64,000 nucleotides of DNA. Origin: Phytohabitans maris (lineage in GTDB: Bacteria > Actinomycetota > Actinomycetes > Mycobacteriales > Micromonosporaceae). The notes beneath the pieces were generated by a model. That model did no database searches. It was not told the DNA's origin and saw nothing but the letters and a program-made list of their open reading frames with translations. How positions within the stretch are numbered: position 1 is the first letter of the stretch; each line of letters starts with the position of its first letter. Position numbers and translations under genes: made by a program. Below are positions 33,637 through 55,032 of the stretch, piece by piece. Where the stretch lies: positions 1 to 64,000 of the forward strand of contig NZ_JAVHUY010000059.1 in NCBI RefSeq assembly GCF_031085175.1, in the 5' to 3' direction.

Positions 33637-34590
33637 ATGTGGACAGCGGCACGGCGGGGGCGGTTGTGGAAAGCGAGCGCACGGCCAGGGCGGCGGTACG
33701 GGGCGAGACGAGGGCAGTGGATGCGGGACGCCGACAGCTTCGACGAGTTCTACCGCGGCACGTCCGCGCGGCTGATGCGGTACGGGTACGCCCTCGTGGG
33801 CGACCTGACCGAGGCGCAGGACGTGGTGCAGGAGGCGTACACGCGGGCGTGGCAGCGGTGGCGGACGGTCGCCGCCCATCCACACCCGGAGGCCTGGGTA
33901 CGGCTGGTCGTCGCCCGGCTGGCCACGGACCGCTGGCGGCGACTGGCCCGCTGGCGCGCGGTCCTGCACCGCTCGGGGCCACCCGAGAACGTCCATCCAC
34001 CCGGCGAGGACACCGTCGTCGTGGTCGCCGCGCTGCGCCGGCTGCCGGTCCCGCAGCGGCAGGCGCTGGCGCTGCACTACCTGTTCGACCTGCCGGTCGC
34101 GCAGATCGCGGACGAGACCGGCGCGCCGGTCGGCACCGTCACGTCCTGGCTGTCCCGCGGGCGTGCCGGCCTGGCCGAGGCGCTCGAAACCCCGCCAGCG
34201 CCGGCGACGAGCCGGACCAGCCGCATGACGCACCAGGCCAGCCCGACGAACCGCACCAGCCCGACCACCAGCCAGGCCAGCCCACCGAACCACACCAGCC
34301 CGACCACCAGCCAGGCCAGCCCACCGAACCACACCAGCCCGACCACCAGCCAGGCCAGCCCACCGAACCCGACCAGCCAGGGGAGCCCGCCCAGGCAGGC
34401 CGGCCCGACCGGCCACGCCAGTGCAAAAGCTGGGCGCACCAGCCCGGCCACACCGCCACAACAGGCCGCATCGAAGCGACAGCCGCCCGACCAGGCCGCG
34501 ACGGGGAAGCGAGCCACGACGGGGAAGCGAGCCGTGGCACCGGCCAAGCCGGGCCAGGGCGGCGTCTGGGAGGGGAACGACGATGAGTGA
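33637..34590 (+). CDS. SigE-type ECF RNA polymerase sigma factor with repeat tail
   Basis: 317 residues from ATG 33637, chosen for AAGGAGG 7 nt upstream; ATG 33721 gives a more usual N-terminus. Region 2: FDEFYRGTSARLMRYGYALV and DAQDVVQEAYTRAWQRW-like. Region 4: LPVPQRQALALHYLFDLPVA and GTVTSWLSRGRAGLAEALE. After residue about 188 comes a roughly 130-residue Ser/Thr/Pro/Gln tail built from a 39-bp repeat, absent from typical ECF factors. It overlaps the downstream membrane partner gene by 8 bp. Confidence 0.85.
   Translation: MWTAARRGRLWKASARPGRRYGARRGQWMRDADSFDEFYRGTSARLMRYGYALVGDLTEAQDVVQEAYTRAWQRWRTVAAHPHPEAWVRLVVARLATDRWRRLARWRAVLHRSGPPENVHPPGEDTVVVVAALRRLPVPQRQALALHYLFDLPVAQIADETGAPVGTVTSWLSRGRAGLAEALETPPAPATSRTSRMTHQASPTNRTSPTTSQASPPNHTSPTTSQASPPNHTSPTTSQASPPNPTSQGSPPRQAGPTGHASAKAGRTSPATPPQQAASKRQPPDQAATGKRATTGKRAVAPAKPGQGGVWEGNDDE
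34255..34371 (+). repeat. 39-bp in-frame tandem repeat (three copies) in the ECF sigma gene
   Basis: Three nearly perfect copies encode the 13-residue unit TSPTTSQASPPNH. Confidence 0.9.
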
Positions 34591-35455
34591 GCTCGACCGG
34601 GCGTTCCGCGCGCTGTCGCAGCGGGCCGACACGGTGCGGCTGGCGGGGCCCTCCGCGCTGCGGGCGCGCGCCGACCGGCGTACCCGGGTCAGGGTCACGG
34701 CCGTGACGGTCGCGGCGGCGGTCGCGGTGGGCGGTGCTGTCGTCGGTACCCAGTGGGTGTTTCGGGCGGGCGGGTCGTCGCCGGCTCCGCTGCCCCCGGC
34801 GGCGACGCCGTCGTGGACGCCCCCGGCGCCGTCCGCGTCACCCACGCCGCGGACGAGCGCGCCGGCGCCGCCGCCGACCACACCGTCCCGCCCGGCGGCG
34901 CCGAAGAGCATCCCGAACAGCGCGTTCCTGCAGGTGGCCGACACCAACGGCCGGGAGCCGGTGGTGGACACGCCGAGCGAGGAGATCGTGCCCGCGCTCT
35001 GCGACGCGAGGTTCGCCAGCGATCGGGACGTGGACCTGCGGCGCAGCCGCCGGGTCACCTACTGGAACGCGCCGAACCGGGAGGGCTACGTGCCCGACGG
35101 GACGTTCCGGCAGACCATCAGCGTATACGAGGCGGGCCGCGCGAGCCGGTTCCTCGACGAGCTGCGGGCCGCGGTCGCGGACTGCCCGACCGACGGCGAC
35201 CGCCGCCACCGCCTGGTATCCGCCACGGAGCGCGGGGACGAGTCGCTGGCGTTCGAGGTGCGGTATCCCACGCTGGACGTGGAGGGCCGGTCGACCGGGG
35301 GGCAGGACGTGCGGCTGGTCTCGGTGGTGCGGATCGGCGACGTGGTGACGATCCTCTACGAGACCGGCTGGGAGGCGGGTTGGTCGGCCGAGCCGGCGGT
35401 GGTGGACGGGTTCACCGGCAAGGCGGTCGACCGGATCCGGTCCTGGTTGGACTGA
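34583..35455 (+). CDS. Single-pass membrane protein, probable partner/anti-sigma of the ECF factor
   Basis: 290 residues from ATG 34583, overlapping the sigma stop (ATGAGTGA). A cytoplasmic N-terminus of about 45 residues (MSELDRAFRALSQRADTVRL) precedes one helix (TAVTVAAAVAVGGAVVG), a Pro/Ser/Thr stalk and an extracellular domain with two Cys (IVPALCDARF; AVADCPTDG). No zinc-binding HxxxCxxC is seen, so it is not a ZAS-type anti-sigma. Position and topology suggest it controls the sigma factor. Confidence 0.7.
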   Translation: MSELDRAFRALSQRADTVRLAGPSALRARADRRTRVRVTAVTVAAAVAVGGAVVGTQWVFRAGGSSPAPLPPAATPSWTPPAPSASPTPRTSAPAPPPTTPSRPAAPKSIPNSAFLQVADTNGREPVVDTPSEEIVPALCDARFASDRDVDLRRSRRVTYWNAPNREGYVPDGTFRQTISVYEAGRASRFLDELRAAVADCPTDGDRRHRLVSATERGDESLAFEVRYPTLDVEGRSTGGQDVRLVSVVRIGDVVTILYETGWEAGWSAEPAVVDGFTGKAVDRIRSWLD

Positions 35456-35529
35456 CCCGCGGATCAGGCGCGCCGAGCGCGGGCACGCCACGCCCGAAGC
35501 ACGCGAGCCCAGAGCCACGGTCGAAGCAC

Positions 35530-35640
35530 GCCAGGAGCACCACCAGGTCCGGAACGTCGCCAGGCCCGGAGCACCACCAGGGCCCGGAGCACCGCCAGAT
35601 CCGAAGCACCCCGGGCCCAGAGCCGAGCCCGGAGCAGCGC
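35530..35640. repeat. Intergenic degenerate repeats (GGAGCACCACCAG-type units)
   Basis: Six to eight imperfect 16-21-bp units between the convergent sigma-partner and synthase genes. Confidence 0.65.
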
Positions 35641-35651
35641 CCGCGGACCGG

Positions 35652-36923
35652 TCAGGACTCCGGGCCCGGACCGGGCTGCCGGGGTGTGGCCGGGCCGGCC
35701 GCCGCGCGCAGGTCGCCGCGTGCGGCCAGTACGTCCAGCGCGTCCAGGAGCCGGTCGATGTCGGCGTCGGTGTGCGCGGCGGTCAGCTGCACGCGCAGCC
35801 CCACGTCGGCGCGGGACACCAGCGGGTACGCGGCCAGCGTCACGTAGATCCCCCGCCGCCACAGCTCGGACGCCACCGCGGACAGGTCCCGCCCGGCGGC
35901 CAGCGGCAGCTCGACGATGGGCGTGCCGCTGGTGTTCGGCGTGGCGACGCCCAGTGCCCGCACCCGGTCCAGCACCCGGGCGGTGAGCCCGTACAGCCGG
36001 CCGCGCAGCCGGTCGCCGCGCGCGTCGTTCACGTCGAAGCCGGCCAGGACCGTGGCGAGCGACGCGGTCGGTGATGGTCCACTGTAGAGGTACGGCGGGG
36101 CGGCCACCTTGAGGTGCTGCTTGACCTCGGTGGGCACCGCGATGAACGCGAGCAGCGACGAGTACGCCTTGGAGAAGCCGCCGACGAGCACGATGTTGTC
36201 GTAGCTCTCGCCCCGCCACCGGACGACCGCGTTGCCGCGCGCGCCGTACGGGGAGGTCTCGTCCGGGCGCCTCTCGCCGACCAGGCCGAAGCCGTGCGCG
36301 TCGTCCACATAGAGCAGTGCGCCGTACTCGCGGCAGAGCCGGGCGTACGCGCCGAGGTCCGGCGGGTTGCCGGTCATGCTGTTGACCCCGTCGACGCAGA
36401 CCAGCCGCGGGGCGCCGGTCGGGGCGGCGCGCAGCAGCCGCTCCAGCTCGGTGACGTCGCCGCCCCGGAAGCGGTGTGTGGTGGCGCCGAGCCCGCGGGC
36501 GTACTGGCAGGCGTCGTAGATCGTGCGGTGGGCGTTGTGCTCGTAGATGACCGTGCCCGTGCCGGCGAGGACCGGCACGACCGCCATGTGGATGAGCGTG
36601 ACGGTGGGCAGGACGAGCGCGTCCGGCGCGCCGAGCAGGTCGGCGAGGCGTTCCTCGATCTGTGGATAGAGGGCCGGGCTGCCCAGCATGCGGGACCAGC
36701 TCGGGTGGGTGCCCCACTTTTCCACAGCCGGCGCGATCGCCGCCTGGATCTCCGGGTCGAGGTCGAAGCCGAGGTAGTTGCAGGAGGCGAAGTCGACGAG
36801 CCAGTGGTCGCCGACCCGGATCTCACGGCCACGCACCTCGTCGATGACGGCGTCCATCATCGGGTTGGTGGCGAGCAGCCGCTCCAGGTCCGACCAGCGC
36901 GCCACGTAGGTCGAGGTCCCCAT
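35652..36923 (-). CDS. Alpha-oxoamine synthase (BioF/CqsA-like PLP enzyme)
   Basis: 423 residues. Fold-type I PLP enzyme: VDFASCNYLGFDLDPEIQAA at the start, VYVDDAHGFGLVGERRP-like Asp loop, and the PLP Lys in LVGGFSKAYSSLLAF. This pattern fits enzymes condensing an amino acid with acyl-CoA (8-amino-7-oxononanoate, serine palmitoyl or CAI-1-type synthases). No other biotin gene is near. Start ATG shares bases with the stop of the upstream c-di-GMP gene (TGATG), so the two are translationally coupled. Confidence 0.8.
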   Translation of the reverse strand: MGTSTYVARWSDLERLLATNPMMDAVIDEVRGREIRVGDHWLVDFASCNYLGFDLDPEIQAAIAPAVEKWGTHPSWSRMLGSPALYPQIEERLADLLGAPDALVLPTVTLIHMAVVPVLAGTGTVIYEHNAHRTIYDACQYARGLGATTHRFRGGDVTELERLLRAAPTGAPRLVCVDGVNSMTGNPPDLGAYARLCREYGALLYVDDAHGFGLVGERRPDETSPYGARGNAVVRWRGESYDNIVLVGGFSKAYSSLLAFIAVPTEVKQHLKVAAPPYLYSGPSPTASLATVLAGFDVNDARGDRLRGRLYGLTARVLDRVRALGVATPNTSGTPIVELPLAAGRDLSAVASELWRRGIYVTLAAYPLVSRADVGLRVQLTAAHTDADIDRLLDALDVLAARGDLRAAAGPATPRQPGPGPES

Positions 36924-39900
36924 CAGGCCGCCACCTGCACATCCGCGAGCCAGGTGAGCACGTCTGGATGGTCCATCGGGCGATGGAAGAGGAAGCCCTG
37001 GCCGTACCGGCAGCCGGCGGCGATCAGCGTCGAGCGGTCCGCCTCCTCCTCGATCCCCTCGGCGACCACGGTCAGCCCGAGGGTGTGCGCGAGCCGCAGG
37101 ATCCCCTCGACCAAGGCCCGCTGCTGCGGCTGTGTGGAGACGGCGTCGATGAACGACTTCTCTATCTTGAGGATGTCCGCGGGTACCTTGCGCAGGTAGC
37201 TGAGTGACGAGTAGCCGGTGCCGAAGTCGTCGATCGCCACCCGGATGCCGGCCTGGCGCAGCCGGGCCAGGTCGTGCCGGACCCGTTCGTCGTCGCGCAG
37301 CAGCAGCGTCTCGGTGATCTCCAGGACGAGCCGGTCGGCGGGGAGCCCGGCCGCGGCCAGCCGCCGCAGCGCCCGGTCGACGAAGCCGGGGTCGCTGAAC
37401 TGGCGGGCGGAGACGTTGATGCTGACGTACGGCCCGTCTTCGTGCGGCCCGCTGCCGCCCCAGGCGACCGCGTCGGTGAGCGCCTGCTCGATCACCCAGT
37501 CGCCGATCGGCACGATCAGCCCGCTCTCCTCGGCCACGTCGATGAAGCGGTCCGGACCGAGCAGCCCGCGGGTCGGGTGCTGCCACCGCACCAGCGCCTC
37601 CAGGCCGGAGGCGGCGCCGGTGCGCAGGTCGACGATCGGCTGGTACTGCAGCACGAACGACCGTTCCGCGATCGCCTGGTCCAGCTCCGCGCGGAGCTCG
37701 AGTCGGTCGAGCACCTGGTTGTGCAGGGCGGACTGGTACCGCCGCCACTGCCCCTTGCCGGCCCCCTTCGCGACGTACAGCGCGAGGTCGGCCTGGCGCA
37801 GCAGGTCGTCGCCGTCGATCGCCTCGGCCGTGGTGGCGATGCCGATGCTCGCCGGTCCGTTCACCACGCTGTCGCCGATCAGGTACGGCTTGCCGAACGC
37901 CGCGACCACGCGCTGGGCCACGAGCTCCACCTCCTCCGGGTCGTGGGCATCCTCGACCAGCGCGGCGAACTCGTCGCCACCCAGCCGCGCGGCGGTGTCG
38001 CCGGCGGCCAGTTCGGCGGTGAGCCGCTGGCTGGCCGCGACGAGCAGCTCGTCGCCGCAGGCGTGCCCCATCGTGTCGTTGATCACCTTGAAGTCGTCGA
38101 GGTCGATGAAGAGGACGCCGACCATCGTCCCGTTGCGGGCGGCCCGGCCCAGGGCGTGTTGGAGCCGGTCGTGGAAGAGCACCCGGTTGGCCAGGCCGGT
38201 GAGCGAGTCGTGGAACGCGCGGTGCTCCAGCTCCCGTTCCAGCCGCCGCCGCTCGGTCACGTCGCGCAGCGTGAGGACCAGCCCGGCCACCGTCGGCTCG
38301 GCGCGCAGGTCGCGGCCGGAGGGCTCCACCTGCACCCGGGTGTCGTCCGGGCCGAGCGCCACCCAGTCGTCCTGGGTCATGCCGCGCTCCCCGGTGCGCA
38401 GCACGTTGAGCATCCGCCGGGCGACCAGCCGGGACGCCGGGTCGAGCAGGTCGAGCAGGGGCGTACCGGGCAGCGGGTCGATGCCGAACATGGCGACCGC
38501 GGAGGGGCTCGCGTACCGGATGCGGTCGCCGGCGTCCAGGATGAGGATGACGTCGGAGTTGTTCTGCACGAGCGTCCGGAAGTACTCCTGGCTGCGCCGC
38601 CGGGTGATCTCCCAGGAGAGCCCGATGCGGTCGAGGGCGAGCGCGGCCTGCGAGGCCAGCACCTCGATGGCCTCGCGCAGCGCGGCGAGCGTGGCCTCGT
38701 CGGCGGCGACGAGAAGGGTGCCGACGTAGGGGTCGCCGGCCGCCCGGTGGGTAACCAGCAGGGGGCACTTCGCGGCGACCTCGATGTGGCCGAGCCGGCG
38801 GGCCAGGTCCGGGCCGAGCGACGCCGTGTACACGAACTGGATGGCGGACCCGGCCGTGACGGTCCCGGTGCCCGGCTCGAGCTCGTCGAGCGCGAGCACC
38901 ACCCGGTGCGCGAGGCCGGCCGGCAGCAGGCGGCGCACCGCGGCCTGTACCGCCGCGGTCACCTCGGCCACGTCGCTGGCCGAGACCAGCGCGGCGCCCG
39001 CGGTCCGCAGCGCCCGCTCCCGGGAGACGACGCCGCGGTAGCCGCTGACCGCCCCGTACAGGCGGGCCAGCACCAGCAGGAACATGACGGCCGCGACCAG
39101 GGCGCTGACCCCGACGTACCGGCCGTCGTCGCGGACCGCCTGGACGATCATGACGGCCGGGGCGACGAGGGTGGAGAGCGCCAGCAGCACGACCCGCCGC
39201 ACGGTCAGGCCGGACCGGGCCGGCACCCGCGGGTCGGTGAGCGCGACCATCGACGGGTGCAGCGCGGCGAGCCCCCAGGCCGCGTAGAAGACGATCCAGC
39301 CGAGGTCGATCGGGCCGCCCATCAGCCACGACGCGCCGATGCCGAGCCGGGAGAAGCCGTACAGGACGTCCGCGACGAGCAGGCCGAGGCCGCCGATCGC
39401 CATCAGCATGACCGACGCGGTCAGCCGCATCGAGATCACGAACCGGGCCAGGACGGCCAGGACCAGGACGTCGAAGAGGGGGTACGCGATGGAGATCGCC
39501 TTCTGCACCCAGGTGAGGTCGTCGGCGTGCACGTACGGGTCGATGAGGAACAGCCAGGCCAGCAGCCCGAACCCGACGGTGAGCGCGAGCGCGTCCAGCA
39601 GGCTGGCCCGGTCCCGCCCGGCGGCGCTCGTGCGGGCCAGGCCGATCATGCCGGCCGTGGCCAGCGGGAAGAACAACCCCAGGTAGATGACGTCGGCCAG
39701 GGACGGGAACGGCTGCTCCTGGCCGAGGACGTCGGTGAGGAAGAGGTACGTGGTGTCGCCCATCGCGAACGCGAAGATCCCGACCGAGAGCAGCAGCCAG
39801 GGCAGCTTCCGCCGCGGGCGGTTGCGGGCCACGCCGACCGCGATCGCGACCGCGCTGGCCGTGCCGATCGCGGTCCAGACGGCCATGTGCCAGCCGGGCC

Positions 39901-39970: not shown

Positions 39971-40115
39971 GATCACCTCCCCGCGCGCGCTACGACCCGG
40001 CGACCCGGCCACCGGGGCGTTCCCGCTGGCAGGCCTTACCGCTGGCCCGCTTCGAGGCCAATATCCGTAGGCTAACCCCCAGATGATCTGTTCAAGCAGC
40101 GTTCGGGGGCGGCGT

Positions 40116-41596: not shown

Positions 41597-41607
41597 GGTG
41601 TGGATCT

Positions 41608-41742
41608 TAGGGCCTGTGTTGTGATGGACACACCGCGAAGGCCGCGCCATCAGACGGCCGTTGTTTGCGGCCTTACGCCCGGCGCCGCATGGCGGCGCCT
41701 GGGCCCGGCGCAGCCCGGCAAGGAACTTTGATACAGGCCCTA
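41608..41742. mobile_element. MITE-like element (131 bp) with terminal inverted repeats and TA duplication
   Basis: Left end GGGCCTGTGTTG (41610) and right end ATACAGGCCC (41731-41740) are inverted copies (GGGCCTGT-R-T), flanked by TA on both sides. The inside has three palindromes and no ORF. The right end GGAACTTTGATACAGGCCC resembles the tip of actinobacterial IS5-type elements. Its right edge supplies the TAG stop of the PLP-enzyme gene. Confidence 0.7.
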
Positions 41743-43659
41743 GCCGGCGGGCCGGTCCGGTCCCCTGTGGTCGCCGCCGTCGTCCAGGCACCCGGGCGGC
41801 AGGTGGAACCAGCGCAGCGCCTCGAAGTCCGGCGCCAGCCCGGTCGGCCCCTCGTCGAGGGCGGCGGGGTGTCCGGCCAGCAGCCGCCGCGCCTGGTCCA
41901 GGTATCCGGCGAGCGCCTCCTCCCCCGCCTTGCGCGGGCGGGCCGGGCGCGCGATCGTGCCGTCCGCCGCGTACCCGAGGTCGCGCAGCCGCGGCGGCGG
42001 CCGCCGGGTGCCGGCGCGGTGCCGCCACAGCCCGGTCCGGGGGTCGAAGCGGTAGTCGCCGAGGAGCCGGTAGCCCTGGCGGGCGACGAGGCCGACCGCG
42101 TCCACGAGGTAGTCGGCGACGGTGTCGGAGATGAAGTAGTTGAAGTTGATCCGGGTCCAGCCCGGTTTGATCCCGTCGCAGCCCTGGCTGACCTCGTCCT
42201 GGAACCGGTGCGAGTGGACGGTGTCGATCGCGAGCAGGCGGTGCCCGTACGGCCCGGCGCAGGAGCAGCCGCCCCGGGCCTGGATGCCGAACAGGTCGTT
42301 GAGCAGCGCCACGACGAAGTTGTGGTGCAGGTAGCGGTCGCCGTGCCGGATCCGCAGGGAGACGATGGAGAGCCGCCGGGCTTCCGGGTTGCCCAGCAGT
42401 TCGATCTCCGGGTTGGCCGACCAGCGGCGCAGCGCCCTTTTCCACAGGCGCTCCTCGCTGGCCTGGATCGCGCCGGTGCCGACCGCTTCCTTGAGCGCGA
42501 AGACCAGGCCGGCCCGGATCGACTCGACGATCGCCGGGGTGCCGCCCTCCTCGCGGGCGACCGGGTCGTCCAGGTAGCGGTGCGAGGTCGGGTCGACGAA
42601 CGCGACCGTGCCTCCGCCCGGGACGGTGGGGACCGCGTTGCGGACCAGGTCGCGGCGGACGACCAGCACGCCGGGGGTCTGCGGGCCGCCGACGAACTTG
42701 TGCGGCGACAGGAACACCGCGTCCTTGTGGTCGCCGGCGCCGGGTGCGGACTCGCCGACCCGGATCGGCACGTACGGCCCGGCCGCGGCGTAGTCCCAGA
42801 AGGAGAGCGCGCCGTGCGCGTGCAGCAGCGCGGCGACCCGGTCGGCGTCGGAGAGGATGCCGGTGACGTTGGAGGCGGCGGAGAAGCTGCCTATCTTGAG
42901 GGGCCGGTCAACATACTCGTCCAGCCGCGCGGCGAGCTCGTCCAGGTCGATGTGGCCGTCGCGGTCGGCGCCGATCGGCACCACGTCGGCGACGCTCTCC
43001 CGCCAGGGCAGCTCGTTGGAGTGGTGCTCGTACGGCCCGACGAAGACGACCGGCCGGCGGTCCGGACGCGGGTAGCCGGCGGGCAGGCGGAGCTCGAGGA
43101 TCCCGACGAGCTTGTCGACCGCGCCGGTCGCCCCCGATCCACAGAAGATGACCAGGTCGTCGTCGGTGCCGCCGACCGCGTCGTGGATGATCTGGCGGGC
43201 CTCCTCGCGCAGCCGCCCGGTGGCCAGGCCGGTGCCGGAGCTCTCGGTGTGCGTGTTGGCGTAGCGCGGCAGCACGTGCGCGCGGATCGCGTCCTCAATG
43301 AAGTCGAGCGAGCGTCCGGAGGCGGTGTAGTCGGCGTACGTGATGCGGCGCGGCCCGTACGGCCCGTCGAGCACGGCGCCCTCGCCGATGATGCCGGCCC
43401 GGATCCGCTCCAGGAGCGCCGCTTTGGCTTTTCTCTGCGCGGCCTTGGTCGCGGCCGCTTTGGCTTTTCTCCGCCCTGCTCTGGTCTCGGCTGCTCCGGC
43501 CGCGGCTGCTTTGTTCGGTGCGGCCTTGCTCGGCGCGGTTGTGGTCGGCGCCGCCTTGCTCGGCGCGGTTGTGGTCGCCGTGGCATTGGCCGGCGCGGTT
43601 GTGGCCGGCGCGGCCTTGCTCGGCGCCGCCGCTCGCGCCGTCGCGATCACGCCGGTCAT
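41740..43659 (-). CDS. Class V aminotransferase/cysteine-desulfurase-like PLP enzyme with basic Ala-Lys N-terminal tail
   Basis: 639 residues. The PLP domain (about 95-560) has RYANTHTESSGTGLATG, IFCGSGATGAVDKL, YEHHSNELPWRES, the PLP Lys in AVFLSPHKFVGGPQTPG, and GGCSCAGPYGHRLL near a possible catalytic Cys. The first about 85 residues are Ala/Thr/Pro/Lys repeats (TTTAPSKAAP; RKAKAAATKAAQRKAKAA) like a histone H1/HupB tail. The stop codon lies in a MITE end. An inverted repeat TTGAG-N6-CTCAA sits at the start. Confidence 0.78.
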   Translation of the reverse strand: MTGVIATARAAAPSKAAPATTAPANATATTTAPSKAAPTTTAPSKAAPNKAAAAGAAETRAGRRKAKAAATKAAQRKAKAALLERIRAGIIGEGAVLDGPYGPRRITYADYTASGRSLDFIEDAIRAHVLPRYANTHTESSGTGLATGRLREEARQIIHDAVGGTDDDLVIFCGSGATGAVDKLVGILELRLPAGYPRPDRRPVVFVGPYEHHSNELPWRESVADVVPIGADRDGHIDLDELAARLDEYVDRPLKIGSFSAASNVTGILSDADRVAALLHAHGALSFWDYAAAGPYVPIRVGESAPGAGDHKDAVFLSPHKFVGGPQTPGVLVVRRDLVRNAVPTVPGGGTVAFVDPTSHRYLDDPVAREEGGTPAIVESIRAGLVFALKEAVGTGAIQASEERLWKRALRRWSANPEIELLGNPEARRLSIVSLRIRHGDRYLHHNFVVALLNDLFGIQARGGCSCAGPYGHRLLAIDTVHSHRFQDEVSQGCDGIKPGWTRINFNYFISDTVADYLVDAVGLVARQGYRLLGDYRFDPRTGLWRHRAGTRRPPPRLRDLGYAADGTIARPARPRKAGEEALAGYLDQARRLLAGHPAALDEGPTGLAPDFEALRWFHLPPGCLDDGGDHRGPDRPAG

Positions 43660-44118
43660 AAGTTGAGAGTGCGCTCAAGGTCGCGACCGCACCAGGGCCT
43701 TTCGGGTAACCGGGCCGCCCGTCGGGTGATCCGGGCCGCCCGAACCGGACACGACGGGCGGACGGGTACAGGCGTGTAAACACCCCGAGGCGAAGCTGTT
43801 TCGCCCGTTGATCTTCACGCGGATGGATCGCACGCTCGATCCACATCGACCCAGGCCAGTGCCCGGGTCTGTCTCCCCGATCCTCGCCTGTCGCCGCCGT
43901 CGCCGGCCGTCCGCCGGCCGTCGCGGTGGTCGCCGGGCCCGACGCGGCCCGGCTAGGCCTGGCCGGCCTGGCCCGGTCCGACACGGCTCGGCTCGGCTCG
44001 GCCGGCGACGGTCCGGCCTCGCCCGGGACGGCTCGGGACGGCCCGCTCGGCCGGCAACGGCCCGAAGCGGCGCGGCCTGGCGAAGGCACGGGAGGCAGAC
44101 CCCGGGGAAGGGAGTGTC
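43660..44118. other. 459-bp GC-rich intergenic region
   Basis: No supported gene. It contains the inverted repeat at 43663-43678, a short hairpin GGCGAA/TTCGCC near 43790, low-complexity CGGCTCGG-type repeats at about 43960-44060, and the strong GGGAAGGGAG ribosome site of the next gene. Confidence 0.5.
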
Positions 44119-44325
44119 ATGCCGCCCCCGTACACCGATGAGACCGCGCTGGAACTCGCCCGCCAGCTCGCGCCGCTGCTGGGCCTCTCCGACATCCACC
44201 TGCCGACCGCGATCGCCGCCGACGTCCTCAACGGGGCGGCCGAGTGCGACGCCCTCCTCGCCGGGATCCCGCAGGAGCGGACCCCGGCGCCGCTGACCCA
44301 GCTCGTACCGGAGTGGCTCCCGTGA
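44119..44325 (+). CDS. AtzG-like (DUF4089) amidase partner
   Basis: 68 residues; ATG after GGGAAGGGAG. TALELARQLAPLLGLSDIHL, VLNGAAECDALLAGI and the ending PLTQLVPEWLP match AtzG-type small subunits that stabilise AtzE amidases. The stop overlaps the amidase GTG by 4 bp (GTGA), as expected for an obligate complex. Confidence 0.75.
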   Translation: MPPPYTDETALELARQLAPLLGLSDIHLPTAIAADVLNGAAECDALLAGIPQERTPAPLTQLVPEWLP

Positions 44326-45842
44326 CCGCCACGGTCAGCCGGCGGACGCTCGTCGCGGGAGCGGCCGTCGCCGGGGCCGCCACCGCGCTCGCCGGATCAC
44401 CGGCGCAGGCGTCACCTTTCGGCGGCCGGGTGCCCGACGTCCCCCTGTACGACCTGGAGGTGTGGCAGGCGGCGCAGCTGATCCGCACCCGCAAGCTCTC
44501 TCCCGTGCGCCTCGCCGAGGCCACGCTCGCCCGCATCGCGGCCGTCGACCCCAAAGTTGAGGCGTTCGTCAACTTGTACCCGGCCGCGGAGATCCTCGCC
44601 GCGGCGCGGGAGGCGGAGCGCGACGTCCGCCGCGGCCACTACCGCGGCCCGCTGCACGGCATCACCGTCGGCCTCAAGGACATCTACTTCACGAAGGGGA
44701 AGGTGACCGAGGGGAACTCGCGCCTCTACACCGGCTTCGTGCCGGACTTCGACGCGACCGCGGTGGCCCGGCTCAAGGCCGCCGGCGCGGTCATCCTCGG
44801 CAAGGTCGGCACCAGCGAGCTGGCCACGTCGACCGTGAGCGCGGCCAACAACCCCTGGGACCTGGCCCGCACCCCCGGCGGCTCCAGCTCCGGCTCCGCG
44901 GCGGGCGTCGGCGCCTCGGAGTTCATGATCGGCATGGGTACCTGCACCGGCGGCTCGATCCGCGGGCCGGCGGCCAACTGTGGACTGACCGGCTTCAAGC
45001 CGACGTACGGCACGATCAGCCTGCACGGCATCTTCCCGCTCGCCTGGTCGATGGACCACCCCGGCCCGCTCGTCCACAGCGCCCGCGACGCCGCGCTGCT
45101 GGTGGACGCGATCGGCGGCGAGGACCCGCTCGACCCGCTCACCCGCAAGGTCAAGCGGTACCGCCTCGCCGACGAGGTGGCCCGCAACGAGGGCCGCAAG
45201 CCGCTGCGCGGGATCGTGGTCGGCGTACCCGTGCCCGACGACTTCCTCAGCGGCGTGCCGAACGACGAGGAGGTCGCCGCGTTCGAGGAGGCGGTCGGCG
45301 TGATCCGGGCGCTCGGCGCCACCATCCGGCCGGTGCGCAGCCAGGTACGCCTGCCCGGGCTGACCAGCGTCAGCTCGTTCTACGACCCGATCCGCAGCGG
45401 CGAGGTGGCCGCCTTCCAGCACCGCAACCTCTTCACCCAGCCGCAGAACATGTCCCAGGACTACCGCAACAAAGTTGTCGCCGGTCTCATGTTGCCCGGC
45501 ACCGCGTACCTGCAGGCCCAGCGGGTACGGCGGCTGTGGCGGGACGGCTTCCTGTCCATGTTCGACGACATCGACGTCGTCATCCACGCCGCGGACAACA
45601 TCGCCGGTCTGAAGGCCGGTGGCAACCCGCCGCTGCCGCGCCCGTCGAGCGGCAGCAAGACGAACATCTGGAACCTCAGCGGCGCCCCCGCGGTCGCGAT
45701 CCCGACCGGCTTCTCCCGCGCCGAACGGATGCCCCTGTCCATGCAGGTCGCCGCCAAGCCCGGTGACGACGGCGTGGCGCTGCGGGTCGCCGACGCCTTC
45801 CAGTCCGTGACCGCCCATCACAAGAAGCGGCCGCCCCTCTGA
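44322..45842 (+). CDS. Amidase signature family enzyme (AtzE-like), Tat-type N-terminus
   Basis: 506 residues from GTG 44322. Twin-Arg signal SRRTLVAGAAVAGAATALAG. Ser-cisSer-Lys triad: K119 in GITVGLKDIYF, Ser in ARTPGGSSSGSAAGVG (about 189) and nucleophile S212 in GTCTGGSIRGPA. The usual GTDTGGS is GTCTGGS here. The partner AtzG-like protein suggests a carboxybiuret/ureido-type or amide substrate, but export with a cytoplasmic partner would be odd; the twin-Arg may be vestigial. Confidence 0.82.
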   Translation: MTATVSRRTLVAGAAVAGAATALAGSPAQASPFGGRVPDVPLYDLEVWQAAQLIRTRKLSPVRLAEATLARIAAVDPKVEAFVNLYPAAEILAAAREAERDVRRGHYRGPLHGITVGLKDIYFTKGKVTEGNSRLYTGFVPDFDATAVARLKAAGAVILGKVGTSELATSTVSAANNPWDLARTPGGSSSGSAAGVGASEFMIGMGTCTGGSIRGPAANCGLTGFKPTYGTISLHGIFPLAWSMDHPGPLVHSARDAALLVDAIGGEDPLDPLTRKVKRYRLADEVARNEGRKPLRGIVVGVPVPDDFLSGVPNDEEVAAFEEAVGVIRALGATIRPVRSQVRLPGLTSVSSFYDPIRSGEVAAFQHRNLFTQPQNMSQDYRNKVVAGLMLPGTAYLQAQRVRRLWRDGFLSMFDDIDVVIHAADNIAGLKAGGNPPLPRPSSGSKTNIWNLSGAPAVAIPTGFSRAERMPLSMQVAAKPGDDGVALRVADAFQSVTAHHKKRPPL

Positions 45843-45850
45843 CGCACGTC

Positions 45851-45884
45851 CCGCGCATCCTGACGGTGCGGTCAGGATGCGCGG
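45851..45884 (+). terminator. Perfect hairpin after the amidase gene
   Basis: CCGCGCATCCTGAC and GTCAGGATGCGCGG form a 14-bp stem with a 6-nt loop, 8 bp past the stop. Confidence 0.75.
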
Positions 45885-46015
45885 GCTGCCGCTTTCGCGG
45901 CCCCGCCCTCACGGCGGGCGTTGCGTCCCGCGGCGCCGCTGCCGCCGCGTGCGGCGACAGCGGCGTTTCGGGCGGTTCGGGGAAGGGGCGCGGGCATGAA
46001 CCACCCCTCCGCGTT

Positions 46016-46034
46016 GTTGAGAACGATTGTCAAC
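46016..46034. promoter_or_regulatory. Zur box
   Basis: GTTGAGAACGATTGTCAAC matches actinobacterial Zur operators (TGAnAAcGaTTnTCA) and lies 19 bp upstream of a zinc-free L33 gene, a classic Zur target. Confidence 0.85.
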
Positions 46035-46053
46035 AGCGAAGGAGGAGCGGACC

Positions 46054-46221
46054 ATGGCTCGCCGCACCGACAACCGGCCGGTGATCTCCATCCGGAGCAC
46101 CGCTGGCACCGGCTACACCTACGTGACCAGGAAGAACCGCCGAAACGACCCGGACCGCCTCGTGCTACGCAAGTACGACCCGGCCGTCCGGCGGCATGTC
46201 GAGTTTCGCGAGACGCGATAA
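46054..46221 (+). CDS. rpmG: 50S ribosomal protein L33, zinc-independent (C-minus) paralogue
   Basis: 55 residues from ATG 46054 (AAGGAGG upstream). [39 protein letters not shown] and [15 protein letters not shown] are L33. Both CxxC zinc motifs of the housekeeping L33 are absent. With the Zur box it is expected to be made in zinc starvation, replacing the zinc form. Neighbouring C-minus genes (L28, S14, S18) are not in the window. Confidence 0.9.
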
Positions 46222-46234
46222 CACGTCACACCCC

Positions 46235-46270
46235 CGAGCCGCCCGTCGCGTCCCCGCGGCGGGCGGCTCG
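46235..46270 (+). terminator. Hairpin after rpmG
   Basis: CGAGCCGCCCG and CGGGCGGCTCG form an 11-bp stem with a 14-nt loop, 14 bp past the stop. Confidence 0.75.
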
Positions 46271-46358
46271 CTGTGATGGCGGGCATGGCTGCCCGCGCCC
46301 CCTCCCTGCCGGTGCACAGCAGCGGCTCCCGCGGGCCACCTGACCCGTGCCGACCGGA

Positions 46359-46643
46359 TCAGTCCATGCCCACGGGTGTGTGCCAGCCACCCTCCGGCGG
46401 CTTGCGGACCAGCTTGAGCACGTCACGCCACCGGCCCGCGCGGGGCGGCGAGGCCGCGACGAGCCGGTCGACCCAGGCCCGGGCCACCCACTCGTCGCCG
46501 AACGCCGGCCAGGTCAGCTCGCGCCCACCCGGCCCGCCGTCGCGGGCGCGCACGAGCCACCGGCCGTCCTCCTGGTGCAGCCAGATGTCGCGCCGATCGG
46601 ACCCGCGGGAGACCCCGTTCCACCAGCGGCCGGCCAGTTCCAT
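46359..46643 (-). CDS. Small hypothetical protein
   Basis: 94 residues from ATG 46643. MELAGRWWNGVSRGSDRRDI, WLHQEDGRWLVRARDGGPGG and WRDVLKLVRKPPEGGWHTP are Trp-rich and soluble. TAGCGT lies exactly 6 nt upstream, which supports a leaderless start. No known domain. Confidence 0.65.
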   Translation of the reverse strand: MELAGRWWNGVSRGSDRRDIWLHQEDGRWLVRARDGGPGGRELTWPAFGDEWVARAWVDRLVAASPPRAGRWRDVLKLVRKPPEGGWHTPVGMD

Positions 46644-46668
46644 GCCGCCACGCTATCGAACGCGTGTT

Positions 46669-47847
46669 CTATTCCGCAAGCACCGGCACGACCAGTGCCC
46701 GCGCCCTGTGGACGGTCGGCTCGGCGAGCTCGGCGGCGACGGCGGCGGCGTAGGTCGCGTGGGACAGCGACGCGGTGGCCTGGCTCAGCGTCACCGGCTC
46801 GCTCACCAGCGCGTACCGCCGTTCGGCCGCCCCACTCGCCGCCGACGCGGCCCGCCCGCTTCGGTCCGCGGCAGCACTCGCCCCGCCGTCGGCTGTGGAC
46901 TCGTCGGCTGTGGATACGGGCGGCTCGGGCAGGCCGAAACCTGAGGGCGGTACCAGGATCGCCCAGTCCGGTCCGGCCGCGCCCGCGCCGGCTGGCGCCT
47001 CCGCCCCCGGTGAGCGCGCCACCGCCGGCCGACCGGGTGCCGCACCCTGGCGGGCGAGCGCCGCGGCTTCACCCGACGGCGCCCCTGCCGGCGCGGCGAG
47101 CGCCTCGGCCTGCCGGGCGTGGGCCTCCGCCTCCCCGGAAGGCACCTCCGGCCGCAGCGCGACGGCCGCAGCGAGCCGGGCGTGGCCCTCCGCCTCCCCG
47201 GAGGGCGCCTCCGGCCGGGTGTGGGCCTCCGACTCTCCGGAAGGCACCTCCGGCCGCGCGGCGATTGCCCCGGCCTGCCGGGCGTAGGCCCCCGAAGGCA
47301 CCTCCGGCCGCGCGGCGATTGCCCCGGCCTGCCGGGCGTAGGCCCCCGAAGGCACCGCCGGCCGCGGGGCGAGTGCCTCGGCCTGCCGGGCGTGGGCCTC
47401 CGCGAACGGGCGCAGGAACGGCGGGAACAGCGCCGGGTCGTCCATGACCAGTCCGCCGGAGTCCAGGCGCAGGGTCGCCGCCAGGCCGACCGCGACCAGG
47501 CGCCGGCGCGGTGCCCGCCAGTGCTCGACCAGCCCGCCGACAATCTTGAGGTAGTAGTCAGGATCGAACCCCTCGAACGACTCCGGCGGTCCGGTGAACG
47601 GGGTGACCGCCAGCACCGCCGCCTCCACGGTGGCCAGCAGCGGCGCCAGCCGTTCCGGATGCTGCGCGTCACCGCGGGCGATGCTCAGCCGTGGATGGTG
47701 CGGCAGGTCGTGGCGGCCGGGTTCGCGGAGCACGGCGGTGACGTCCCAGGCGTCGCGCAGGAGGGCGGCCGTGACGGCGCGACCCACCCGCCCGCCGGCA
47801 CCGATGACGGCGACGCGGCGGGGCGTACCGGAAGGGGTGGCTGGCAT
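46669..47847 (-). CDS. NAD(P)-binding oxidoreductase (SDR/azoreductase-like) with internal repeat expansion
   Basis: 392 residues from ATG 47847 (TAGCCT 7 nt upstream). Rossmann start RRVAVIGAGGRVGRAVTAAL, then VTAVLREPGRHDLP, VEAAVLAVTPFTGPPESFEG and GPDWAILVPPSGFGLPEP are NmrA/SDR-like. Between FPPFLRPFAEAHA and PDWAIL an insertion of about 140 residues holds roughly seven copies of an 18-residue repeat (AYARQAGAIAARPEVPSG). Homologues join these parts directly. Divergent from HxlR, so probably regulated by it; whether the enzyme still folds is uncertain. Confidence 0.75.
   Translation of the reverse strand: MPATPSGTPRRVAVIGAGGRVGRAVTAALLRDAWDVTAVLREPGRHDLPHHPRLSIARGDAQHPERLAPLLATVEAAVLAVTPFTGPPESFEGFDPDYYLKIVGGLVEHWRAPRRRLVAVGLAATLRLDSGGLVMDDPALFPPFLRPFAEAHARQAEALAPRPAVPSGAYARQAGAIAARPEVPSGAYARQAGAIAARPEVPSGESEAHTRPEAPSGEAEGHARLAAAVALRPEVPSGEAEAHARQAEALAAPAGAPSGEAAALARQGAAPGRPAVARSPGAEAPAGAGAAGPDWAILVPPSGFGLPEPPVSTADESTADGGASAAADRSGRAASAASGAAERRYALVSEPVTLSQATASLSHATYAAAVAAELAEPTVHRARALVVPVLAE
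47243..47350. repeat. 54-bp perfect tandem duplication inside the oxidoreductase gene
   Basis: 47243-47296 and 47297-47350 are identical; less perfect units extend over about 46990-47400. The unit length keeps the frame. Confidence 0.9.
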
Positions 47848-47908
47848 GGGCGCGAGGCTAGATCCCGGGCCCCCGGTCACCGCAACGTAACCGGGTAGCG
47901 TGGAGCCG

Positions 47909-48277
47909 GTGAACGCGACCGGGACCAGTGCACCGCTGCCGCCGTTCGACCCGATCTGTCCCAGCAGCGTCGTACCGGTCCAGATCGGCGGCAAGTGGAC
48001 CGCGATGATCGTGCTCTGCCTGGAGGCGGGACCGCGCCGCTTCGGGGAGCTCCGCCGGCATCTACGGCCGATCAGCGCCAAGGTCCTCGCCGAGACCCTC
48101 GACGCGATGGAGCGCGACGGCCTGACCCACCGCCGGCCTGTGGACGACGGTGTCGAGTACCACCTCACGCCGCTCGGCCGTACGCTCCTCGGCCTCATCG
48201 AGCACGTCCGTACGTGGGCGCGGGCCAACCTCGACGAGCTCTCGCGCGCCCGCGCCCGTGGCACCATGGCCGGGTGA
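47909..48277 (+). CDS. HxlR-family winged-helix regulator
   Basis: 122 residues from GTG 47909, chosen because TAGCGT lies 7 nt upstream (a GTG at 47900 is inside that box). Winged helix: GGKWTAMIVLCLEAGPRRFG, ELRRHLRPISAKVLAETLDA, and LTPLGRTLLGLIEHV. A lone N-terminal Cys (PICPSS) could be the redox switch used by HypR-type members. It overlaps the following GNAT gene by GTGA and faces the oxidoreductase. Confidence 0.85.
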   Translation: MNATGTSAPLPPFDPICPSSVVPVQIGGKWTAMIVLCLEAGPRRFGELRRHLRPISAKVLAETLDAMERDGLTHRRPVDDGVEYHLTPLGRTLLGLIEHVRTWARANLDELSRARARGTMAG

Positions 48278-48816
48278 CGCTCGTGGAGATCTCGTTCGAA
48301 CCGCCGGGGGCGGCCGCCGACGCCGGGTTCCTGGCGCAGGCCACCGACCTCGTCAACCGGGTGTACGCCGATGCGGAGAAGGGCATCTGGCACGAGGGCG
48401 CCGAGCGCACCAGCCCGGAGGAGCTGGCTGGCATCGTGCGCGCCGGCGAGCTCGCCACGGCCCGCCTCGGCGGCCAGCTGGTCGGCGCGGTACGGGTGCG
48501 GCGGCTGGCGAGCGGCGAGGGCGAGTTCGGCATGCTCGTGGCCAGCCCGGATCACCGCGGGACCGGGCTGGGGCGGCGGCTGGTCGAGTTCGCCGAGGGC
48601 TGGGCGCTGGACCGTGGGCTGGCGACGATGCAGCTCGAGCTGCTCGTGCCGCGGGAGTGGACCCATCCGGTCAAGCAGTTCCTGCACGAGTGGTACACCC
48701 GGATCGGCTACCGGCCGGTCCGCGGCGGGAGCCTCGCCGACGACTACCCGGCGCTGGCGCCGCTGCTGGCCACGCCCTGCGACTTCGTCATCTACCACAA
48801 GCCACTGTCGCGTTAG
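48274..48816 (+). CDS. GNAT-family N-acetyltransferase
   Basis: 180 residues. Acetyl-CoA loop EFGMLVASPDHRGTGLGRRL (motif A R/Q-x-x-G-x-G/A) then VEFAEGWALDRGLATMQLEL, and a C-terminal WYTRIGYRPVRGG typical of GNATs. It is translationally coupled to HxlR. Confidence 0.85.
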   Translation: MTLVEISFEPPGAAADAGFLAQATDLVNRVYADAEKGIWHEGAERTSPEELAGIVRAGELATARLGGQLVGAVRVRRLASGEGEFGMLVASPDHRGTGLGRRLVEFAEGWALDRGLATMQLELLVPREWTHPVKQFLHEWYTRIGYRPVRGGSLADDYPALAPLLATPCDFVIYHKPLSR

Positions 48817-49107
48817 GACCCGGCAGCGAACGGGCACCTTTGCGCGCGGTCCACATCGGACCGCTCTGCGGTCGAGGGGCGGTCGTAGGGAAGCTCGCCC
48901 CGACCGCGGTGGCCCAGGGCTAGGTCCCGGCGCTCGATGGTGGCGCGCGGCATCCCCACCCCGCCGCCCGGGGGCCGGGCGGCGGCGCGGAACGCACAGG
49001 CCGACGCCCGGGACCGCACCACGAAGCCGTCGATAGTTTAGCTACCATACGAACTATCGTGACGGGCAGGGTTGCCGAAACCGTTACGAAATCATCGGTT
49101 GACCCCG

Positions 49108-49137
49108 TTGACACGGCACCCGGCGGTCGAGTTAGCT
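49108..49137 (+). promoter_or_regulatory. Promoter of the sugar ABC operon (TTGACA-N18-TTAGCT)
   Basis: -35 TTGACA 49108-49113 and -10-like TTAGCT 49132-49137. Transcription would begin just before the LacI-type operator. Confidence 0.5.
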
Positions 49138-49148
49138 TGCGAACGGAC

Positions 49149-49166
49149 AGTCGAAGCGCTTCGACT
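49149..49166. promoter_or_regulatory. LacI-family operator (perfect 18-bp palindrome)
   Basis: AGTCGAAGCGCTTCGACT is a perfect palindrome with the central CG of LacI-type sites, just downstream of the -10 of the sugar ABC operon. The repressor gene is not in the window. Confidence 0.75.
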
Positions 49167-49305
49167 CCGTCGTTCGACACGTCGCCCCACCGGGGCGCGG
49201 GCCCGTTGACGCCGGGCCGGCGAGCCGCACCCCGCGCCCACCCCCTGTCTCGCTACGCGGACCGCCAGGCCGGCCCGCTCACCGCCCACCCACGAGGAGG
49301 CAGCC

Positions 49306-50940
49306 GTGAGACTTCTTGACCTACCCCTCAACTTCCGCCGCCGGCACGCACCCGCGGCCACCGCGAACAACACCGCACCACGACGCGCACCCGCCGGCAC
49401 CGCGAACGAAACCGGACCGCACCACGCACCCGCGGCCACCGCGAACAACACCCCGCCACGACGCGCACCCGCCGGCACCGCGAACGAAACCGCATCGCGC
49501 ACACCGGCAGGCTCCGTCGCGGCGCAGACCGCAGTACCGCAGCGCACACGCACGGCCACGACGAGCAGGGCCGCATCGCGACGCGCGCGCACGGCCACCG
49601 CGAGCAACACCGCACCGCGACGCGCACGCGCGGACAAGGCCGGATCGCGCGCACGCGCGGGCGCCGTCGCCGCCCTCGCCGCTCTGTCGCTGGTCCTGGC
49701 CGGATGCGGCGCCGACTCCGACGACGGCGCCGGCGGCGGTGACGGCAAGACCCTCAGGCTGTGGCACTACGAGTCCGCGACCAGCGCCATGGGCATCGCC
49801 TGGACGGAGGCGATCAAGCAGTTCGAGGCGTCCCACCCGGGTGTCAAGGTGCAGTTCGAGCCGAAGGGTTTCGAGCAGATCCGGCAGAGCGCCAACATGA
49901 TCCTCAACTCGGACGAGGCGCCCGACCTCATGGAGTACAACAAGGGGAACGCGAGCGCCGGCCTGCTGTCGAAGCAGGGGCTGCTCACCGACCTCACCGA
50001 GGAGGCGGGCAAGCGGGGCTGGGACAAGATCGGCCCGAGCCTGCAGACGACCTCGAAGTACGACGCCGAGGGCATCATGGGCGGCGGCAAGTGGTACGGC
50101 GTCCCCAACTACGCCGAGTATGTGATGGTCTACTACAACAAGGACCTCTTCGCGAAGCACAACGTGCGGGTGCCCACGACGCTCGCCGAGTTCGAGGCCG
50201 CGATGGACACGTTCGTGAAGGCCGGCGTGACCCCGCTGTCCGTGGGCGGCGCGGAGTACCCGGCGCAGCAGATCCTCTACGAGCTCGCCCTCGCCAAGGC
50301 CAATCGCTCCTTTGTGGACAACTTCCAGCTGTACAAGGGAAAGGTGGACTTCAAAGGCCCGGAGCTCACGTATGCGGCCACGACGTTCGCCGACTGGGTG
50401 AAGAAGGGCTACATCGACAAGAACTCCGCCGGTATCAAGGCCGAGGGCATGGGCGTCGCGTTCACCCAGGGCAAGTTTCCGATGGTCGTCTCCGGCAGCT
50501 GGTGGTACGGGCGCTTCGTCTCCGAGGCGAAGTTCGAGTGGAGCACGTTCCTCTTCCCCGGCAACACGCTGCACCCCGGGTCCGGCGGCAACATCTGGGT
50601 CGTCCCCAAGAACGCGAAGAACGCCAGCCTCGCGTACGACTTCATCGACATCACCATGAAGCCGGAGATCCAGAACCTGCTCGGCAACTCCGGCGGCGTA
50701 CCGGTGCTGGCCGACCCGGGCGCGATCACCGACCCGAAGAGCAAGGAGCTCATCGACAACTTCGACAAGGTGACCTCGACGGACGGGCTGGCGTTCTACC
50801 CCGACTGGCCGGCGCCCGGCTACTACGACGTGCTCGTGGCCGGCGTACAGCATCTCATCAACGGGACGAAAAGCCCGGAGGCGGTCCTCGACGAGATCGC
50901 CAAGCCGTACGACGACAACCTCGCCAGCCTCGGCAAATGA
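49306..50940 (+). CDS. Sugar ABC transporter solute-binding lipoprotein with a long N-terminal repeat extension
   Basis: 544 residues from GTG 49306 (GAGGAGG upstream). The mature part starts at lipobox LVLAGC (Cys about 134) and is a MalE/UgpB-type binding protein: LRLWHYESATSAMGIAWTEA, then SSWWYGRFVSEAKFEWSTF-like ligand loops and PDWPAPGYYDVLVAGVQHLI. The preceding about 110 residues are Arg/Ala/Thr repeats (HAPAATANNTAPRRAPAGTA twice) with no in-frame ATG/GTG near the signal, so the extension seems truly translated. It probably binds an alpha-xylose- or glucoside-containing oligosaccharide. Confidence 0.82.
   Translation: MRLLDLPLNFRRRHAPAATANNTAPRRAPAGTANETGPHHAPAATANNTPPRRAPAGTANETASRTPAGSVAAQTAVPQRTRTATTSRAASRRARTATASNTAPRRARADKAGSRARAGAVAALAALSLVLAGCGADSDDGAGGGDGKTLRLWHYESATSAMGIAWTEAIKQFEASHPGVKVQFEPKGFEQIRQSANMILNSDEAPDLMEYNKGNASAGLLSKQGLLTDLTEEAGKRGWDKIGPSLQTTSKYDAEGIMGGGKWYGVPNYAEYVMVYYNKDLFAKHNVRVPTTLAEFEAAMDTFVKAGVTPLSVGGAEYPAQQILYELALAKANRSFVDNFQLYKGKVDFKGPELTYAATTFADWVKKGYIDKNSAGIKAEGMGVAFTQGKFPMVVSGSWWYGRFVSEAKFEWSTFLFPGNTLHPGSGGNIWVVPKNAKNASLAYDFIDITMKPEIQNLLGNSGGVPVLADPGAITDPKSKELIDNFDKVTSTDGLAFYPDWPAPGYYDVLVAGVQHLINGTKSPEAVLDEIAKPYDDNLASLGK
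49345..49500 (+). repeat. 78-bp tandem repeat in the N-terminal coding region of the lipoprotein gene
   Basis: Two nearly identical 78-bp units (starting 49345 and 49423), keeping the frame (26 codons each), followed by more degenerate Arg/Thr-Ala units. Confidence 0.85.
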
Positions 50941-54956: not shown

Positions 54957-55032
54957 CCACCACGTGCGGCCGGGACAGCCGGCGACGCGCGGGAGAGAGC
55001 CGGCAACGAGCGAAGCGAGCCGGACGATCGGC

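Follow-up and report, generated by a model that had tools for sequence, protein, structure and literature searches.

In-frame tandem-repeat blocks in four unrelated genes of Phytohabitans maris, probably young minisatellites filtered by reading frame

Among actinobacteria, the mycobacterial MIRU/VNTR loci are tandem repeats with units of about 40-100 bp whose copy number varies, and the MIRUs form a dispersed, related family that is mostly intergenic. The general phenomenon of such repeats is already known. Among the closest known kinds are the satellites and intragenic minisatellites of prokaryotes (Subirana and Messeguer 2019, PMC6749651); the portion of that paper available to us holds no mention of Phytohabitans. 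According to the available text of a study on Burkholderia pseudomallei, whose GC contents are 67.7 and 68.5%, arrays and VNTRs are rarer in coding regions, where their units are mostly multiples of three, and for 36.3% of the arrays the same genome has a second copy, complete or in part, at another place (PMC1853098). We recognised no report on such repeats in Micromonosporaceae in the literature searched, including PMC7692728.

The window analysed here is a 64,000-nucleotide stretch from the genome of the soil bacterium P. maris (contig NZ_JAVHUY010000059.1). Its 10 non-overlapping arrays with a score of at least 100 are confined to the part from 33.4 to 49.7 kb, and a span of 16 kb contains seven distinct repeat loci, four of which are in genes (Table 1). 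A preliminary description of this DNA claimed that four unrelated genes carry GC-rich in-frame tandem repeats, and this was borne out: the top TRF scores of the four genes (168-284) were matched in none of them by 200 codon shuffles per gene (best 60-76) or by another 200 within each block (best 85-119), and thus they hold more head-to-tail copies than chance gives. The 36-bp array of the PLP enzyme, taken singly, scores below the best within-block shuffle of its gene (119). All coding periods in these genes are divisible by three, and the frame is open throughout the blocks. The same description placed repeats between genes at 33.5, 35.6, 44.0 and 62.7 kb. The first three are above chance, since Markov-2 sequence yields no array with a score of 80 or more, whereas the last is unsupported: its arrays (62.7-62.9 kb) reach just 53 and 48, and about three arrays with a score of at least 50 turn up by chance in Markov-2 sequence modelled on the window.

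Table 1. Genes and tandem-repeat arrays in the repeat-rich part of the window (G001, G002 and G005 are sister species)
Feature	Position	Strand	Evidence
Intergenic array, 14 bp x 6.9	33465..33559	.	TRF; spacer 357 bp vs 143 (G005) and 148 (G002)
SigE-family ECF sigma factor, 289 aa	33721..34590	+	TIGR02983, 151 bits (cut-off 141.55)
C-terminal tail of sigma factor, 39 bp x 3.7	34233..34378	+	TRF, 95% match, score 257
Intergenic array, 17/35 bp	35530..35623	.	TRF; anchor distance 291 bp vs 106 (G005) and 103 (G002)
Class-V aminotransferase (PLP, SufS-like), 639 aa	41740..43659	-	PF00266, E 2.7e-39
N-terminus of PLP enzyme, 30-bp + 36-bp arrays, 64-aa private insertion	43418..43626	-	TRF
 36 bp x 2.2	43418..43495	-	TRF, score 107
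 30 bp x 3.7	43515..43626	-	TRF, score 168
Array upstream of PLP gene, 39 bp x 1.9	43932..44006	.	TRF, score 101
NmrA-like/NAD(P)-binding oxidoreductase, 392 aa	46669..47847	-	PF13460, E 8.5e-10
54-bp + 39-bp arrays between HARQAEAL and DWAILVPPS	47046..47402	-	TRF, alignment
 39 bp x 2.2	47175..47260	-	TRF, score 123
 54 bp x 3.0	47240..47402	-	TRF, 94% match, score 284
Sugar ABC-transporter solute-binding lipoprotein, 544 aa	49306..50940	+	PF13416, PF01547; GTG start after GAGGAGG
n-region of lipoprotein signal peptide, 39/78-bp arrays	49345..49633	+	TRF
 78 bp x 1.9, composed of 39-bp halves	49345..49492	+	TRF, 97% match, score 282
 39 bp x 2.5	49536..49633	+	TRF, score 119

Comparison with sister species places the blocks as additions to otherwise conserved genes. 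In the sigma factor, the conserved domains are followed by a repeat tail, where the 39-bp array is part of a 93-aa private insertion; the orthologues in G005 (193 aa) and G002 (189 aa) lack this block, gene order and flanks being conserved, and the tail is 96-100 codons longer in P. maris. Gene order and flanks are likewise conserved around the PLP gene, whose block is absent from G001, G002 and G005 and whose orthologues in sister species have 575, 578 and 574 aa. The NmrA-like gene is about 390 bp longer than in G002, the one relative compared, again with conserved gene order and flanks, and the full-length homologues in our alignment (A1, from which homologue L010 is left out) measure 212-264 aa. 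All five other Phytohabitans have a close orthologue of the lipoprotein, the G005 copy being in pieces, and, with gene order and flanks conserved here too, its block is absent from G001, G002 and G005; the lipobox Cys, residue 134 in P. maris, is residue 51 in G005, 39 in G001 and 24 in G002. In a single-sequence AlphaFold prediction, the sigma tail is a low-confidence coil within a poor model (mean pLDDT 52.5), and the AlphaFold model of the NmrA-like protein is equally poor (mean pLDDT 52.5), with confidence at residues ~11-80 only. The added segments are probably disordered.

Since two of the blocks lie at protein heads, the true starts might be downstream, with the repeats as untranslated upstream DNA. 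A signal peptide of ~134 residues is far above the usual length, and the codon-usage gene caller sets the lipoprotein start after the block. However, the start codon (ATG in the PLP gene, in three sister species) and its neighbouring codons are conserved upstream of both head blocks; no in-frame ATG, GTG or TTG occurs downstream of the lipoprotein start as far as the lipobox, and past codon 4 the PLP gene has start codons in the conserved domain only. The sigma and NmrA-like blocks are unaffected by this reading in any case. We regard it as very improbable.

We think it likely, instead, that the blocks are young, lineage-specific intragenic minisatellites, which arose in low-complexity DNA of high GC content and were filtered by frame. 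Local tandem duplication, through either replication slippage or unequal exchange, would hit such DNA anywhere; in genes, the survivors would be those with stop-free units in multiples of three, sited in tails, linkers or n-regions, whereas between genes an array could survive at any unit length. The four blocks would then be four separate insertions, acquired once P. maris had separated from the sister species examined, and the parts that they extend, in proteins that are conserved apart from this, are hydrophilic and probably disordered. As local duplication predicts, three blocks resemble the insertion site of relatives, namely those of the NmrA-like gene (best p 0.001), the PLP gene (best p 0.003, but 0.12 in one relative) and the lipoprotein gene (best p 0.008, but 0.14 in one relative), these p-values being uncorrected and, for the latter two genes, the best of up to three relatives. 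Against the relatives' sites, neither the sigma block (p 0.13 and 0.39) nor the 33.5-kb array (p 0.19 and 0.52) showed the signal of an ancestral seed. Repeat units are of lower complexity than matched controls. Slippage driven by hairpins was considered and rejected, as coding units fold like matched controls and intergenic units fold less.

The part played by reading frame can be seen in the sampled genomes, where periods were divisible by three in 46 of 47 coding arrays and in 17 of 44 intergenic arrays, leaving out the window, 8 arrays lying partly inside genes (2 in the own genome, 3 in other Phytohabitans and 3 in other genera) and the Pro-rich stretch L013. Including L013, the counts are 47/49 and 26/54, and six of its 'intergenic' arrays sit in two long Pro-rich open frames missed by the gene caller. 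With the arrays of the window classed by the gene caller, all 5 coding ones and 3 of the 5 intergenic ones have periods divisible by three, although two of the latter are the lipoprotein arrays, which we counted as coding on other evidence. The expected excess of multiples of three is therefore present in genes and missing between them, and so selection, not the mutation itself, accounts for it: the repeat-making process ignores frame, and selection filters its products.

A further possibility is that the repeats have a function in the protein, for example as a spacer or a newly gained binding region, and were selected and amplified for their usefulness. In agreement with this, the coding strand of three blocks has almost no T (0.9-1.9% vs 13.7% in window genes), which makes the encoded peptides hydrophilic; over all coding arrays in the Phytohabitans samples, units differ more at third codon positions (0.180) than at the other two (0.085 and 0.082), so that in many arrays elsewhere selection acts on the protein; and an 18-bp coding array (L024, on contig C13) is old and common to the five Phytohabitans compared. 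With this last array the earlier expectation of length-variable proteins holds only in part, namely for the four blocks, which differ between species. However, neighbouring units in these four blocks differ 16, 17 and 18 times at codon positions 1, 2 and 3, and thus show no sign of peptide-level selection; the third-position excess expected of a functional repeat protein (TPR, pentapeptide) was not seen in them, while gene cores have it. No shared function is apparent among the four proteins either. A/T strand asymmetry is real but as strong in intergenic arrays (0.58 vs 0.34 in controls) as in coding ones (0.53 vs 0.33), and hence needs no protein selection; for this reason, and because it is confounded with low complexity, we dropped it as a signature of stop avoidance. 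We consider amplification for usefulness quite unlikely for these blocks, which are probably close to neutral.

The preliminary description saw one mutational process seeding repeats across this genome. Arrays do arise regardless of function, in and between genes, but the process is not peculiar to P. maris. At a score of at least 80, a 400-kb sample of its genome has 9.8 arrays per 100 kb (7.1 without L013). None of the other five Phytohabitans reaches 9.8 (0 to 7.9; 40-140 kb each), but the value falls within the 0 to 25 spanned by 20 other genera (40 kb each), these representing 20 of the 30 family genomes. Density rises with GC (Spearman 0.70; 26 genomes, score at least 60), and in the other Phytohabitans there are 14.9 arrays per 100 kb between genes vs 2.0 in genes. 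A repair defect of the lineage could have caused repeat expansion throughout the genome, and the sample density is indeed 1.8 times that of the other Phytohabitans; yet the ratio falls to ~1.3 without L013, and two control blocks of the own genome with 63 genes hold no private insertion of comparable size. The suggested check of repair genes revealed no difference between Phytohabitans in the two families examined, NucS being found in 6/6 and MutS in 0/6, so that these two families do not indicate a repair defect; nor did we recognise in the literature searched any link of NucS to such repeats. We give this explanation very little credence, and to genome-specific hypermutation neither the densities in relatives and other genera nor the two repair families examined lend support. 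Private runs without repeats also occur (e.g. 43 aa in G003) and look like frame or start differences.

Insertion of a mobile or dispersed repeat element at each site would be another route, and the genome does carry a dispersed intergenic repeat with an 80-bp period and the 23-base word GTCCTCGCTTCGCTGCGGGCGGC. None of the window-derived loci L001, L002, L052 and L079 matches this word, however. The four blocks show no mutual similarity, partial matches of 30-45 bases being all that was found among them and in the 400-kb sample; one 14-base word of the lipoprotein block recurs at the 62.7-kb site. Own-genome DNA searches, in which 40 first-look candidates were scored for each block, recovered the sigma block itself plus at least four stretches of 39-60 bases at 79-85% (40 of 300 candidates), the NmrA-like block itself plus at least two such stretches of the same length and identity (40 of 635) and nothing besides itself for the lipoprotein block (40 of 235). 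Such an element is extremely improbable.

The kind of event is already known; the unusual part is the clustering of four affected genes within 16 kb, which a uniform process leaves unexplained. In the corresponding stretches, G005 and G002 have no array with a score of at least 80, and G001 has its own intergenic array cluster in the same neighbourhood and a different array in the interval matching that upstream of the PLP gene. Over 20-kb stretches, arrays in the own sample are over-dispersed with L013 (p 0.0058 at score 60 and 0.0026 at score 80) but not significantly without it (p 0.056 and 0.089), nor in the other Phytohabitans (p 0.072 and 0.075); the p < 0.0003 of the 20 pooled genera includes differences between genera. 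Tandem duplications might arise as local, lineage-specific bursts, for instance where one region underwent over-replication or an episode of error-prone repair, an idea to which we assign a small chance.

On the preferred reading of frame-filtered local duplication, the four genes show how duplication and selection lengthen floppy protein parts. The syntenic sister genomes supply before/after pairs for the birth of repeats in conserved genes, including a lipoprotein with a grown signal-peptide n-region, and such pairs separate frame-blind mutation from frame-keeping selection. They also offer test cases for how far a sigma factor, a PLP enzyme, an NmrA-like enzyme and the export pathway tolerate disordered inserts. 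In contrast to MIRUs, the P. maris blocks are mutually unrelated and lie inside genes, and MIRU-type related copies at many genomic places were not found for the lipoprotein, NmrA-like and sigma blocks among the 40 candidates scored for each. Unlike the arrays of B. pseudomallei, as far as these are described in the available text, the same three blocks lack a further complete copy in the candidates scored; on the other hand, the two genomes are alike in high GC and in coding arrays that are scarcer and mostly multiples of three. With respect to the available part of PMC6749651, the P. maris insertions add a placement against sister species and a measured contrast in frame between coding and intergenic arrays.

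Four unrelated proteins of this 9.87-Mb draft genome (95 contigs) had been described as carrying in-frame tandem repeats, and this description holds. TRF found all the periods, namely 39 bp in the sigma-factor tail, 30/36 bp in the head of the PLP enzyme, 54/39 bp in the NmrA-like interior and 78/39 bp in the lipoprotein head, and the top TRF array score of each gene was reached by none of 200 whole-gene codon shuffles or 200 within-block shuffles. The intergenic arrays stood in part: three of the four named sites (33.5, 35.6, 44.0 and 62.7 kb) are real, whereas the one at 62.7 kb is at chance level. The hosts are ordinary genes, whose products are a sigma factor of the SigE family, a class-V aminotransferase (the PLP enzyme), an NAD(P)-binding protein of the NmrA-like type and a lipoprotein that binds sugar. 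In comparison with sister species, differences in their cores fall mostly on third codon positions, the pattern expected under purifying selection.

Set against the sister genomes G001, G002 and G005 (P. suffuscus), the blocks are private insertions among the genomes compared; two array-bearing spacers (357 vs 143 and 148 bp; 291 vs 106 and 103 bp) are likewise longer here. From region 4 of the sigma factor to the next gene there are 400 bp, compared with 112 in G005 and 100 in G002, and the differences of 288 and 300 bp are each divisible by three. The PLP enzyme has 639 residues (575, 578 and 574 in G005, G002 and G001, respectively): its ATG and first residues are as in the sisters, followed by 64 additional residues and then by shared sequence. 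In the NmrA-like gene, the anchors lie 425 bp apart, compared with 37 bp in G002, whose copy has a frameshift nearby that leaves the exact size of the difference uncertain; an alignment of the protein with six homologues of full length places the insert between a HARQAEAL-type segment and a DW segment, and no close orthologue beyond G002 was found in the genus. The lipoprotein shares its start codon and first residues with those of G001 and G005, but the lipobox cysteine comes at residue 134 here and at residue 51 (G005), 39 (G001) or 24 (G002) in the sisters; between the start and the lipobox here, no further usual start codon occurs.

At the threshold used, the blocks show no mutual similarity, except for one 14-base word of the lipoprotein block that recurs at the 62.7-kb site. 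A second full copy of the lipoprotein, NmrA or sigma block was not found genome-wide among the 40 candidates scored out of 235, 635 and 300, respectively, where matches span 39-60 bases; the PLP block was compared with a 400-kb sample of the genome. When relatives' insertion sites were compared locally with the repeats against 1000 random segments, likeness was seen for the NmrA (best p 0.001), PLP (0.003) and lipoprotein (0.008) blocks, and was absent for the sigma block (0.13) and the 33.5-kb array (0.19); therefore, three of the five tested repeats look as if grown out of local sequence.

Arrays of score at least 80 were classed as coding or intergenic with a simple codon-usage gene caller. 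Leaving out L013, a 20-kb stretch of the own-genome sample that holds 12 such arrays, coding periods are divisible by three in 14/14 cases in this genome, 9/9 in other Phytohabitans and 23/24 in 20 other genera, so the predicted excess of multiple-of-three units is present in coding arrays. The corresponding intergenic counts, 5/11, 6/19 and 6/14, do not depart significantly from one third, and thus agree with a frame-blind process; with L013 included, this genome gives 15/16 coding and 14/21 intergenic. The contrast points to selection acting after mutation. Selection might also have favored the repeats themselves as useful protein segments, a reading that we consider unlikely; we regard the blocks instead as quite probably minisatellites of recent origin that keep the reading frame and sit where conserved proteins tolerate them. 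They are of an ordinary kind, for which the comparison gives good documentation.

Coding arrays can also be old, since an 18-bp array on contig C13 is common to each of the five Phytohabitans compared, and the nucS block has a 405-bp repeat that three share. In this block P. suffuscus carries a Pro-rich insert of 20 residues that is private to it, and therefore the same process is active there too. Near the gene block that bears the repeats in the window, G005 and G001 have arrays of their own (34 bp x 9.3, 37 bp x 4.7 and 69 bp x 2.7).

Two orthologous blocks of this genome served as controls, 60 kb round nucS and 20 kb on C13, the latter chosen since one gene there has an array; genes for which two or more relatives have an orthologue numbered 47, 16 and, in the window, 19. 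In the controls, private insertions of this genome reached at most 10 residues within proteins and 21 at their ends, while the script listed 93 (sigma) and 64 (PLP) residues in the window. The lipoprotein, whose start the gene caller trims, was added from the start-codon and lipobox comparison, and the NmrA-like gene, with an orthologue in one relative, fell below the two-relative requirement. The excess is post hoc, because the window was picked for its repeats. In a 400-kb sample of this genome, array density (score at least 80) is 9.8 per 100 kb (7.1 without L013), compared with 5.3 over 580 kb in five other Phytohabitans (0 to 7.9 in individual genomes) and 5.1 over 800 kb in 20 other genera (0 to 25). 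In these samples this genome thus has the highest density of the six Phytohabitans, with only a small lead once L013 is left out, and lies within the family range. Density correlates with GC (Spearman 0.70; 26 genomes, score at least 60). NucS was detected in 6/6 Phytohabitans and MutS in 0/6 at the thresholds used.

Locations of further features in the window and in sampled genome stretches (L numbers)
Feature	Genome	Location
GTCCTCGCTTCGCTGCGGGCGGC-containing element		L025:6970-8002
GTCCTCGCTTCGCTGCGGGCGGC-containing element		L158:16425 and 19943
GTCCTCGCTTCGCTGCGGGCGGC-containing element		L159:23-125
GTCCTCGCTTCGCTGCGGGCGGC-containing element	G002	L036:9541
Own arrays near the repeat-bearing gene block	G005	L072:12865-13270, 6393-6564
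Own arrays near the repeat-bearing gene block	G001	L064-L066 joined, 53113-56540
Pair of long open frames rich in Pro, Ala and Gln, holding several tandem arrays	this genome	L013:12715-17096
Three tandem arrays, 14.5% of a 40-kb sample	G012 (another genus)	L119/L139
Conserved 87-aa gene	this genome	window 29527-29790
24-G run, then more G-rich sequence	this genome	window 29806-29871
68-aa protein and amidase	this genome	window 44119-45842

The dispersed element containing GTCCTCGCTTCGCTGCGGGCGGC has an 80-bp period, is partly tandem between genes and belongs to a repeat class different from the reported blocks. In the Phytohabitans samples, A/T strand asymmetry of repeat units is about 1.6-1.7 times that of matched segments, in genes and intergenic regions, which is partly a low-complexity effect. 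The G run just past the 87-aa gene may be a tract that varies in length, or else an assembly artefact. Finally, a 68-aa protein with 93-98% identity among sister species immediately precedes an AtzE/GatA-type amidase, and the two resemble the AtzG-AtzE pair.
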